Assembly (NCBI GenBank): GCA_013420905.1
Contig: JAAXNY010000011.1
Coordinates: forward strand, 1,736,001 to 1,800,000
Origin: Collybia mongolica
Taxonomy: Eukaryota > Basidiomycota > Agaricomycetes > Agaricales > Clitocybaceae
Direction of reading: 5' to 3'
Length of the DNA stretch: 64,000 nucleotides
Below are positions 18,149 to 28,756 of this stretch, one piece after another (the stretch's first letter is position 1; each line of letters opens with the position of its first letter). The notes under the pieces were generated by a model. The model was not told where the DNA came from and made no database searches. It was given only the letters and a program-made list of their open reading frames with translations. The position numbers and the translations under genes were made by a program.

Positions 18149-19786
18149 CTACTGGGTCGCGGTACCATCATTCCCCTGTTCGTAGCGATGCGCCATTTCA
18201 AACGTGATAGAAGGGTTAGTAACCCGGGTTCGGAATATTATCCGAGTCGACATCCCAAATGCAAGCTCGTCGTCGCCATTAGTGGTGTTATATTGCTTCA
18301 AATTGAGTGTCAGGCGTCCTATCATAGTTGTCGTGATGCTAACCAGGCCCGCGACTTTTAAGGGAAAATGCCGAAGTATTGGCTTATAGATCAGTACTCA
18401 CCATGCGGACCAGCTAACATCAAGGGCGTTAGTCAAGAGAACCTGTACATGTAAATGGGGACTGACGTCTCTAACGATGTAAAGTCACTTTCTCGAACAA
18501 CCTAAGCATGACAACCTTCAGCGAAAGAATACTTCATACAATAATTTCCGACTTACACTGTTGTGCTTCGCCTCGAAGGCAGCCCGGGCTAGGACCCATG
18601 CAAGGTTGCTCGCAAACACAACAAAAAAATATAGTGTTCCGTCTCTGATAATCAGCTGGACCAGCGGCATTTGATTTCGATAACGACCCGAACGTCGATA
18701 GAGGCCCACAGTCAAAAGGATTCCAACGATGGCATCAAATACCACCGCGGGGACAACAAACCACACACCTGACGACGGCCTAAGAAGCCCCATGAACTTG
18801 AACAGATCTTCCCGAGAGAACATAAATTGAACGTACTCTATAAATAAAATCTTTGATATGTTGCCAACTGACAAAAAGAGTGACGCTGTTTATGAAAAGG
18901 GCTTGAGTCAAGGCATTAAGCGCAACCATCAATATGCACCTTGATAGGCAAAAAAGCTCATCGTAGACAGGTGGGCAATCCATAGGAACATCAGAAGTAC
19001 AAGGATAGGTTTGTTGCCACCATAAACGGCGGAGACTCTGCAAGGAGCAAGGAACACATCTTCGTTAACGAAATTTTAAGTGGATAATATCCACTAACCT
19101 CAGAATCAACATAAGCTCTGCAATCAACATAGAAACAATGGTCAAAAGAACCAGAACAAGGACTGGATGGCTAGATGTTGGAAATATGGTAAGTCGGTCT
19201 AACTGATGTGCGAGGAGATGATAAGCTGACAACTGTTAACCGGCAATTTGCCTGATTAGCTCGTATTGATATGTTTAAGATAGATTCCTTACATTTGTGT
19301 CCTCGCCCTGCATAGCACCATCAACCGTAGTCATTGGGACCAAAGTGACCCCAAGCACATATATGACCATCGCTATCAGCGTAAAGTACCTGTTTATGAG
19401 AAAGAGAACATCGACTGATTGGCCTTAAGAGAAGCGTTCCGGCTTGAAACATGAAGGCGTCACTCACTGATTGTCATTCTCCTCCTCCATACGTAGTTGA
19501 TCTAGACAAGCGTTTAGCCCCCACGATATTTAAATGGTGCAGTGGAGACACGACCTCATCCCCGATAGTCAAAACGTGGTCGAACAGGAGGACAACGAAG
19601 GATACAAGGGTCGTATTCTGGAGAAGAAATCAGCATACGTAAGGGCATGACAACAAAAAGCGGAGCTGGCTCACAAGTACCAGTCGGCTGCATACAAGTA
19701 TGAATTCATTGGTAAAATATACGAGACATGTCAAAAGTGTATACGTACTCTGTCCAGAAACGCTCTACAAGCCTGGGGTCACCCAT
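18149..19786 (-). CDS. DUF6533 seven-helix membrane protein, copy A
   Basis: Integral membrane protein of 319 residues; the biochemical role of DUF6533 proteins is not known. Exons (minus): 19786-19749, 19687-19675, 19617-19555, 19501-19468, 19423-19293, 19232-19231, 19170-19099, 19037-18940, 18885-18837, 18779-18557, 18501-18467, 18413-18402, 18338-18149; total 960 nt. The DUF6533 signature is VLLFDHVLTIGDE followed by YVWRRRMTI and LINRYFTLIAM. Further helices are at PVLVLVLLTIVSMLIAELML, NKPILVLLMFLWIAHL, WFVVPAVVFDAIVGILLTVG and GTLYFFVVFASNLAWVL. The last core segment is WSACITTTMIGRLTLNL, and the tail is polar. Phase requires a 2-nt exon (TT) between the NRYFTL exon and the next helix. 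Its exon lengths match copies B and C almost exactly. Confidence 0.85.
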
Positions 19787-24468: not shown

Positions 24469-25936
24469 ATGGAATACGATCCTGAAAGAGTGGAAGTAGG
24501 CTGGAGCGAGTACGCCCATGGTTGGGAACTTACAAAATAGCTGTGTTGACACTGTTATGCATTACAGGCGGCTTCTTTTCGTAAGCATCTTCTTGATGTT
24601 CACGCTCGCTGCTCGTTGAACCTCAAAATAGAGTACAATCCTCCTATCATTCATCGTTCTACTCTACGACCACCTTCTGACATTCGCTGATGAGGTAGTT
24701 TGATATCTCGCCCCCCATACTCACCCTCATTCAATTACTTCAACACTTCAGGTAGAATATATATGGAAGCGGAGATGGACACCTTGTAAGTTTTCAGCAT
24801 GCGTTGGTACTTGGCCTATTCTAATGTCTGTTTTCACCAGTCAGTGTCCTCTTCATACTCAACAGATATTTTGTGGTCCTTACGATGATTGCTTATCTTT
24901 GCGCCATCTCGGATTTCAATGAACACAAGGTAAGTCTGATTTCGATCACCTGCGGAATTGGCGACGCTGATATCAATTTGGATGATGTGGTAGCTGTCAG
25001 TACTCAATTCATTTATTTTCGCGGACACGTTAGCTGACTTTGAGCTGCAGTCAGCCTGCCTTGATCCTTGTAATCCTGTCATCAGTTACAATATTAGTGG
25101 CTGAGGCCATGTTATCCCTCCGGTAAGCCATACATGTCCATATATTGGAACATCTTGACCGAAACCCACTAGGGTTTACGCGGTTTACAATAATAATAAG
25201 CTAATCCTTGGCCTTGCTTTATCTGTTTGGATCACTCACCTGGTGACCATTTGCATTGCTATTGTTGGGAAAGAAGGTCCAATTTTTTTTTCTTCAGAAT
25301 ATAGTATGAATGGACCCTGACCAGACCCGGGAATAGGTATATTGAATCCCACAAGCCTTGGGTGGAATACTGTCCTCGATATATCCTCGGATGTTCGGCT
25401 TCTATTCGTCCTCCCTGCCGTTGTGTTTGATGCACTCGTCGGAATGCTTTTGACACTAGGACTTTATCGAAATTTTGGACCGTATAGGGTTAAGATGCCG
25501 CTTGTTAGACTCATCATAAGAGATGGGATCCTGTATTTCGCCGTGGTGTTTGCATCCAATGTCGCATGGATCCTTATCAACGCCCTCCTGGCTGATAAAG
25601 TGGTGAGCGCGCTCATATCTCTGCCTTTTTAAAACTCAATTATCGTTTCAGTGGTTGATCGGACTCCAGTTTACTCCAATGGAAATGTGAGTTGTTGAGC
25701 AACTATTCGTTTTCTTCGGGCCGGGGTATATGCTCATCACACCATTAACTCCACAATCTGATAGCTGGTCTGCATGGTGGGCGCTTTTTCTGCATTCTAA
25801 GCAACCTCCAGACTTGACCTCGCTATGTAGTATCACAGCAACCATGATTGGGCGGTTGACCCTCAATCTCAGGATGTACGATCCTGCTGGGAATGACGAG
25901 CTCACCTTCGCCACGATGAGCCTAAAGTTTACTTAA
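24469..25936 (+). CDS. DUF6533 seven-helix membrane protein, copy B
   Basis: Membrane protein of 278 residues, function unknown. Exons 24469-24509, 24568-24580, 24632-24694, 24752-24785, 24841-24929, 24994-24995, 25051-25122, 25173-25276, 25337-25602, 25652-25686, 25765-25776 and 25831-25936 (837 nt). DUF6533 signature: VLLYDHLLTFADE, then VEYIWKRRW and FILNRYFVVLTM. Helices follow at PALILVILSSVTILVAEAML, LILGLALSVWITHLVTI, LLFVLPAVVFDALVGMLLTL and ILYFAVVFASNVAWIL, then WSACITATMIGRLTLNLR. It shares with A and C the 13-, 63-, 34-, 2-, 72-, 35- and 12-nt exons. Unlike them it has no intron between the exons corresponding to their ninth and tenth. The C-terminal tail is shorter than in C. Confidence 0.85.
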
Positions 25937-27082: not shown

Positions 27083-28756
27083 ATGACTGAGTACACCCTG
27101 TCTCAGCTTGCAGAGCGTTCTCGGATCGAGTGAGTATGCAGAATCGATAAAAGCTCACTCCCCCCCCTGACGCCGTTCGTAATACAGTAAAGTGGTACTT
27201 GTAAAACAGCTCCGTCTTGTTTCATGGTGTAGTGCTGACCCCGTCTGGAGAGTACGACCCTTGCGTCCTTCATTGTCCTCTTATTCGACCACATTTTGAC
27301 GATCGGGGATGAGGTCGTGTGCACACTCAATCAATCAATGCCACAGATGCTAAACTGCTAGCGCTTTTGTCCAGGTCAAATATATCTGGGGGAGAAGGTT
27401 AACAATCAGTAAGTGGACATTCTCTTTTAAGACCCAGTCAAGCCTCAACAGAAATAGTCAGTGGTCTCTTCCTTTTGAACAGATATTTTACACTCATAGC
27501 AATGATTGTCTATTTGGCCGGTGTGACCTCAACGCCAATGACCCCTGTTGGTGGTGTTGCGCCAAATAGTCCAATAAATGTAGGCTGAGTGTCTTACGCT
27601 CGTTTTTTCAGATATTGAGACGAGTATTCTTTGACTAGATGTCAGTTTTTCGCCTTCCAGGGCAAGAGTTGTAGCTCATCACCAACACCATTGAATTAAC
27701 AGTCATCCGGTGGAAGTTATTGTGGTTTTATCCATCGTTTCCGTGTTGATTGCGGAAATCTTGTTAATTTTAAGGTTCGTGGAGTAGTCAGCTAGTAATA
27801 TCCGATTAACTTTCGTTCAAAGGGTTTCTGCTGTTTACCATAACAACAAATTTATTATTGCCTTCCTAATATTCCTGTGGATTGCTCATCTGATAATGAT
27901 GGTATATGTTACCATGGAAGGTGAGTAGTCAACCTTACCACGCTCAATCCTTATATTAAGATACGTCCTACCAATGATCAGCCTCAGAATACCTGTCCGA
28001 AAATCATATCTCTAAGATTTTATTCATAGGGTGAGTCGCACTTTGTCCGCTTTTTTTACGATGGCTTGCTCAACTTCTGTGACTGCATAGGCCATCTGCG
28101 GGCCTGATATTTGTCGTTCCTGCCGTAGTATTCGATACTGTCGTTGGTGTCCTTTTAACCTTCGGCCTGTATCAAAATTCGGGCCGATTTCGAGATCAAA
28201 TGCCATTGGTCAGGTTGATCATGAGGGACGGAACCCTCTATTTTTTTGTTGTCTTCGCGAGCAACGTCACATGGATCTTGACCCAGTCCTTTCTCCAAAC
28301 ACGGATGGGACCTCATACTAGTAGTGTGGGTAAACAAACCGATTTCTGCTTTTTTTTTTCCGCTGAAACTTGGCGTTGTGCTCAGGCTTTCCGAGAAAGC
28401 GACTTGACACCACTTGAAATGTCAGATATAATTTCTTTATACATAGGAGCAGTGGCTAATATTTCTTTGATGTCAGTTGGTCGGCATGGTGCGTTTTCAC
28501 CTGTGAATCACAAATCTAGGCCACTCTCAAGCTAAACTTTGATAGCATCACCACTACGATGATCGGCCGTTTGACACTAAATATGAGGGAATATAACCCT
28601 TCGAATGATGAGGAGTTTACATTAACGCGGTTGAGATTCCGAAGCGAAGTCTCTCGACAACCCATTGGGTCTGAATGGGTGATCGAAGACTACTACGGTC
28701 AGCCGGAGGATAACACGCCAACTCAGCGACCATCGGGAATGAGATACGCCGATTGA
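27083..28756 (+). CDS. DUF6533 seven-helix membrane protein, copy C
   Basis: Membrane protein of 332 residues, function unknown. Exons 27083-27129, 27188-27200, 27251-27313, 27375-27408, 27452-27579, 27639-27640, 27703-27774, 27823-27920, 27982-28030, 28091-28325, 28386-28420, 28477-28488 and 28546-28756 (999 nt). DUF6533 signature: VLLFDHILTIGDE, VKYIWGRRLTI, LFLLNRYFTLIAM. Helices follow at VEVIVVLSIVSVLIAEILL, FIIAFLIFLWIAHLIMMV, LIFVVPAVVFDTVVGVLL and TLYFFVVFASNVTWIL, then EIWSACITTTMIGRLTLNM. The tail of about 60 residues is polar and acidic. It is in direct orientation with copy B, 1.1 kb downstream, as expected from local duplication. The 2-nt exon is AT at 27639-27640. Confidence 0.86.

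Follow-up and report, generated by a model that had tools for sequence, protein, structure and literature searches.

A predicted two-nucleotide exon kept at one codon in DUF6533 genes of Collybia mongolica

Among the closest described systems is the one-nucleotide exon of the CYP621A P450 genes of Fusarium, published in February 2026 and termed the first for a fungal gene, in an article that also mentions exons of 2–5 bp for Arabidopsis, Drosophila, and human (PMC12940212). The single-nucleotide exons in plants to which the earlier note on this DNA alluded are indeed published for APC11 and VPS55 (PMC4674806, PMC8831610). Short exons of fungi include the regulated 20-nt switch exon of Trichoderma Xlr2 (PMC11121469) and the 8-nt exon of CYP5141A1 from the basidiomycete Phanerochaete (as told in PMC12940212).

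The two-nucleotide (2-nt) exon predicted here for DUF6533 genes would join these ultra-short exons, distinct from them by a family-wide conservation of length accompanied by drift of sequence. As with CYP621A, the exon is fungal, is recognized by exon phases that do not match, by an intron that is too long, and by a homolog lacking introns, and would keep a codon in frame. However, it holds 2 nt instead of 1 nt, and the CYP621A case, as presented in PMC12940212, is an ascomycete one, consisting of orthologs of one gene with an identical exon in all of them. With APC11 and VPS55 it shares the conservation of an ultra-short exon over long evolution (PMC4674806, PMC8831610), and with APC11 the presence of intronless relatives holding the base or bases inside a larger exon (PMC4674806). 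The plant exons are 1 nt long, and the DUF6533 exon differs in its letters from copy to copy, with eight forms; moreover, both the plant exons and the CYP621A exon were confirmed with RNA (PMC4674806, PMC8831610, PMC12940212), whereas the DUF6533 exon is predicted from DNA. The exons of Xlr2 and CYP5141A1 are likewise short and fungal, that of CYP5141A1 also being from a basidiomycete, but they are four to ten times longer (PMC11121469, PMC12940212). A 2-nt exon in DUF6533 genes was not found in the literature on 2-nt exons, on DUF6533, or on micro-exons of basidiomycetes and Agaricomycetes, a coverage that mostly excludes subscription journals.

The window, that is, the whole stretch of 64,000 nucleotides that was analyzed, spans positions 1736001–1800000 of contig C11 in a source genome of 46 Mb and 26 contigs. 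It contains three DUF6533 genes, named A, B, and C, with the following features:

18149..19786, minus strand: gene A, ATG to stop, 13 exons, 951 nt; DUF6533 (PF20151), 52.4 bits
19293..19414, minus strand: exon 5 of gene A, ending in phase 0
19292-19233 and 19230-19171, minus strand: introns of gene A beside the 2-nt exon, 60/60 nt
19231..19232, minus strand: predicted 2-nt exon TT of gene A, acag-TT-gtcagc; with the next base TTC (Phe)
19099..19170, minus strand: exon 7 of gene A, the helix exon, 72 nt
24469..25936, plus strand: gene B, ATG to stop, 12 exons, 837 nt; DUF6533 (PF20151), 58.9 bits
24841..24929, plus strand: exon 5 of gene B, ending in phase 0
24930-24993 and 24996-25050, plus strand: introns of gene B beside the 2-nt exon, 64/55 nt
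24994..24995, plus strand: predicted 2-nt exon CT of gene B, gtag-CT-gtcagt; with the next base CTT (Leu)
25051..25122, plus strand: exon 7 of gene B, the helix exon, 72 nt
27083..28756, plus strand: gene C, ATG to stop, 13 exons, 990 nt; DUF6533 (PF20151), 55.1 bits
27458..27579, plus strand: exon 5 of gene C (..NRYFTL..SPIN), ending in phase 0
27580..27638, plus strand: intron of gene C upstream of the 2-nt exon, 59 nt, GTAGGC...CTAG
27639..27640, plus strand: predicted 2-nt exon AT of gene C, ctag-AT-gtcagt; with the next base ATT (Ile)
27641..27702, plus strand: intron of gene C downstream of the 2-nt exon, 62 nt, GTCAGT...ACAG
27703..27774, plus strand: exon 7 of gene C, the helix exon, 72 nt, its first base completing the split codon

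Once the 2-nt exon is included, each of the three genes is open from ATG to stop, and the three spliced proteins, which were scanned against the Pfam profile PF20151 leaving out the 16 other copies described below, all exceed its cut-off of 24.1 bits. The 990 nt of gene C are counted with exon 10 running three bases beyond 28325, where this exon probably ends (AGT-gtgggt), and the C protein that was scored is the version with exon 10 ending at 28325. These genes are split into very small pieces: exon 2 has only 13 nt in A (19687-19675), B (24568-24580), and C (27188-27200), and the next-to-last exon has 12 nt in all three.

The coordinates and sizes that the earlier note had given for the exons and introns around the junction (60/60, 64/55, and 59/62 nt) proved exact, and so did its contrast between an exon that ends in phase 0 and a helix exon that starts in phase 2, which holds in A, B, and C. 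The helix exon has 72 nt in all three genes and its first base closes a codon; since the two bases open that codon, the reading frame depends on the exon. We consider it highly probable, judging by frame, site scores, and recurrence, that A, B, and C carry a constitutive 2-nt exon between two ordinary short spliceosomal introns. In C, it is the best-scoring reading among those enumerated. The motif AGNTGTCAG occurs three times over both strands of the window, each time at the 2-nt exon of one of the three genes. With 8 fixed bases and 128,000 positions, simple arithmetic gives a chance expectation of about 2; the weight thus lies in where the motif stands and not in how often it occurs. Among first-order Markov sequences generated for the intervals of A, B, and C, 6.0%, 4.4%, and 19.6%, respectively, contain by chance an AGNNGT that leaves at least 45 nt for each intron. 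The pattern AG-NN-GT is unremarkable in any single copy; the same length across 19 copies is not.

Relatives were found by a protein search of the same genome with part of A, which returned 18 stretches (L061-L078) and thus, together with A, B, and C, 21 loci. In the first aligned set of 12 copies (A, B, C, L061, L063, L064, L065, L067, L068, L069, L071, and L073), AG-NN-GT is central in every one, between introns of 52–64 and 55–65 nt. L074, L075, and L076, recognized by eye and then checked, likewise carry the 2-nt exon; L066 is devoid of it, L072 lacks an intron there, and the junction region was not located in L062 or L070 among these 18 stretches. A helix-exon profile run on 50 further DUF6533 loci (30 + 20; L011 and L026 overlap) recognized the helix exon in six of them. 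The 2-nt exon is found in four of the six, namely L012, with a clear profile score of 18.2 bits, and L092, L095, and L097, whose helix exons, scoring 5.4–6.7 bits, are equalled by many false hits and were chosen by eye, while L024 and L083 appear contiguous there. L074, L075, L076, L092, L095, and L097 were picked by eye while seeking the 2-nt pattern, and the seven later copies weigh less than the first 12 because most were recognized in this way. When gene structures were searched for automatically in the distant DUF6533 loci, the filters were passed only by L018, L023, L028, L029, and L031; the solutions listed for L018, L023, and L028, at most three per locus, included none of 2 nt, and L029 and L031 gave no solution at all.

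Altogether, 19 copies in the genome hold the 2-nt exon at the homologous codon, comprising A, B, C, and 16 relatives, a count that leaves out 46 examined loci (44 of the 50 further loci, L077, and L078). The 16 further genes bear out the interpretation of the earlier note, which is very probably correct, as far as gene structure can tell. In all 19 copies the introns on both sides measure 50–66 nt and lead from phase 0 to phase 2, with canonical GT-AG ends except for intron 1 of L074, which is GC-AG. The donor GTCAG that the earlier note had seen after the exon is present in A, B, and C, but among the 19 copies it recurs only in L075; the second donors of the others are GTATGT, GTAAGT, GTGAGT, and so on. 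GC-AG introns with GCAAGT donors occur at three places in the gene family (L074, L061, and L066). Two of the exceptional loci also deserve a mention. L066 holds at 1290-1345 a sequence, CAG-TG-GTGTATGACAACCAG, that resembles the relic of a 2-nt exon plus a second intron reduced in size, both being part of the coding sequence today. In L072, the distance between the helix exon and the exon after it is about 860 nt, compared with about 50 in other copies, perhaps owing to an intron insertion.

The length of the exon was examined with splice-site matrices trained on the first 12 genes (34 donors, 36 acceptors), which include the outer sites of the interval and exclude the inner sites under test. 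Exon lengths (k) of 0–23 nt were scanned, requiring both flanking introns to have at least 45 nt. In the 12 training-set copies, k = 2 fits in 12/12, with a summed score of 102.5, followed by k = 6 (6/12, 32.9), and the frame-equivalent lengths fit in none (k = 5), two (k = 8), two (k = 11), and one (k = 14). In the seven non-training copies (L012, L074, L075, L076, L092, L095, and L097), k = 2 fits in 7/7 with a score of 67.8, and the next is again k = 6 (4/7, 17.0). Two bases are therefore the only exon length fitting every copy (12/12, then 7/7). Furthermore, when two-intron readings were enumerated with the outer sites fixed, free of stops, with an exon of 2 modulo 3 up to 59 nt and introns of at least 40 nt, the 2-nt exon ranked at the top in 19/19 enumerations and was the sole stop-free reading in 13. 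Some sites are weak: the second donor scores 1.0 in A, -0.2 in L061, and 0.2 in L095, versus a training mean of 6.5. A scan for branch points proved uninformative, a branch-point-like motif being absent from 9/24 introns beside the 2-nt exon and from 3/12 control introns.

Eight kinds of dinucleotides are found in the 19 copies (TT in six, TG in four, GT, GC, and TC in two each, and CT, AT, and GA in one each), encoding F, C, V, A, S, L, I, or E across the split codon; it follows that the length of the exon is conserved and its letters are not. The possibility that AGNTGTCAG is merely a conserved motif was ruled out, because in other clades the letters differ and only the length is retained. 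Between clades, flanking-intron identity in 10 pairs drawn from the first 12 copies is 0.14–0.45, against a shuffled baseline of 0.21–0.39 (first introns, five shuffles each), whereas in the closest pair, L064-L065, the introns are alike (0.82/0.84). Pseudogenes were also ruled out: A, B, and C have open frames, and each of the six pairs for which substitution rates were obtained shows a dN far under dS (0.18 vs. 1.56 for A-C and 0.08 vs. 0.37 for L064-L065, with dS saturated for A-B). Paralogs without introns at this point appear to hold a fitting residue in a larger exon: L072 reads straight through as GGT TTC CAG CCC (G-F-Q-P) and L024 as D-V-C. The tree of the family is a sketch, with the L066 row in the wrong frame and the P0005 row miscut, and A with P0001 (100/97) is the sole pair involving a window gene that is free of both.

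Protein searches returned 26 proteins, 25 of which form the external comparison (P0024 was left out), and the top matches come from the mushroom Collybia nuda. Several of them agree with the 2-nt reading at the junction. P0005 (YPK-F-QPA) and P0012 (YPK-F-RPA) correspond to L067 and L068 (YPK-F-QPG), and the Panaeolus proteins P0023 (KE-V-CDR) and P0015 (RA-V-CDR) equal L075 (QE-V-CGR) in length and residue. Others diverge there: P0001, homologous to A, has one extra residue, P0011, P0016, and P0018 are two residues longer, and P0006, P0014, and P0017 have longer inserts, the last six having been read by eye. Among the 25 proteins, no match at the junction was achieved for P0003, P0004, P0007, P0013, and P0021, and in the rest the junction is uncovered, too distant, or left unjudged. 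This scatter probably reflects gene finders failing on a 2-nt exon, but could be real variation. As for P0001, a guess is that its junction residues LS could be TTGTCA, the 2-nt exon of A having grown to 7 nt with a compensating loss of 2 nt in the next exon.

The most immediate alternative is that each gene has a single intron whose donor or acceptor is shifted in a way particular to that gene, AG-NN-GT being accidental and no 2-nt exon existing. A reading of this type passes the filters in 17/19 copies, some with fair scores: in A, by read-through of the 60-nt second intron (13.0) or with an exon start at 19202 (10.0); in B, with an acceptor leading to an exon start at 25034 (12.0; LTLSCSQPAL); and in L063 (14.0), L064 (13.8), L067 (9.1), L068 (8.1), and L074 (8.4), the donor lying 14 nt downstream in both L067 and L068. 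Due to these open readings, the claim that a length of 2 modulo 3 must lie between the two large exons is too strong for A and B alone. In C, the lone single-intron reading that passes is very weak, scoring -0.1, and L061 and L097 have none. The single-intron sites and peptides are, however, unlike between copies, with no one solution for all, and in several copies (L063, L075, L092, and L095) they lose residues kept by the 2-nt reading. In addition, the Markov-null product for an accidental 2-nt pattern in one copy per clade (A, B, L063, L064, and L073) is about 7e-8. The homologs of C. nuda bear on this point unequally. Spliced with CT, B aligns with the annotated protein P0002 over 278/278 residues, at 89% and gap-free, with 500 bits, versus 494 bits and a 5-residue gap for its single-intron rival. 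For A, the 2-nt reading reaches 119 bits against P0001 and its rivals 119, 118 (a single intron), and 115, so that this comparison, going by the scores, does not discriminate among readings of A. Taken together, the single-intron explanation is very unlikely.

A longer or different mini-exon is even harder to sustain, and we regard it as extremely improbable. The earlier note held that longer alternatives would need 3' introns of 22–35 nt, which is not fully right, given that A and B have other open readings and A can accommodate an 11-nt exon (ANCR) with introns of 41/70 nt. The latter scores 6.5 versus 8.2 for the 2-nt exon, and equals it against P0001 in bits, with two gaps versus one. Nevertheless, none of the other frame-compatible lengths recurs among the 12 copies, and a longer stop-free reading, present in 6/19 copies, always ranks under 2 nt. 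Finally, the whole interval could be a [D1,2] stwintron, a kind well known in fungi (PMC9024468), in which removal of the first intron would create a donor by bringing the exon's last G next to the T after the first AG. As in the 2-nt reading, two introns leave in consecutive reactions and joining of the far sites shifts the frame, and the stwintron would be frame-neutral in the 9/19 copies where the exon ends in G and T follows. Contrary to the [D1,2] stwintrons described in PMC9024468, though, a GT donor cannot be formed in 10/19 copies, A, B, and C among them, and two coding bases would stay in the mRNA. In 9/9 qualifying copies, the composite donor scores below that of the 2-nt exon (-1.3 vs. 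6.9 in L073; -5.4 vs. 0.2 in L095), and the stwintron product of L073 fits P0005 worse (162 vs. 171 bits, with one gap), which leaves this explanation with a negligible probability. The three alternatives were all enumerated and dropped as family-wide explanations, no one solution serving all copies.

The 2-nt exon, which on its predicted structure ranks among the smallest kinds of exon known, may predate the radiation of DUF6533 genes and have persisted at a single codon in many genes throughout the mushroom-forming fungi, where many would be misannotated. We see the arguments for and against this origin as evenly balanced, and hold it no more firmly because most of the distant copies were recognized by eye. 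If true, it would represent a very widespread near-minimal exon, fixed in length while its two letters drift freely. If spliced as predicted, the 19 natural variants of one genome, with eight dinucleotides and donors from strong to weak, would make the order of intron removal, the prevention of skipping, and the minimal exon sequence for the spliceosome directly testable. Frequent errors at this junction would then also be suspected in the annotation of genes for DUF6533 membrane proteins. One such protein is SNB1 of Coprinopsis, for which seven helices are predicted and whose gene is required for fruiting-body patterning (PMC10949477).

The sequence directly shows the position, the frame, and a length shared by 19 genes, and from these we infer that the 2-nt exon is spliced in. 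The two introns would be recognized as separate units of 50–66 nt (intron definition) and removed in succession. Two further introns of these genes are similarly short (47–66 nt in 12 copies and 49–64 nt in 10 copies), so the spliceosome can take each as a unit. Stepwise removal is proposed because U1 on the second donor and the factors on the first acceptor, only 2 nt away, would hardly fit simultaneously; for potato invertase, which has a 9-nt exon, removal begins with the second intron, according to the discussion in PMC4674806. Direct joining of the first donor to the second acceptor, across an intron of 104–128 nt, would be disfavored and would shift the frame. After such skipping, a stop falls inside the helix exon in 7/19 copies, and in L092 and L095 it lies near the end of the helix exon or in the next intron. 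The second intron of A (19230-19171), with 60 nt, is a multiple of three and free of stops in frame, and its retention would add 20 residues.
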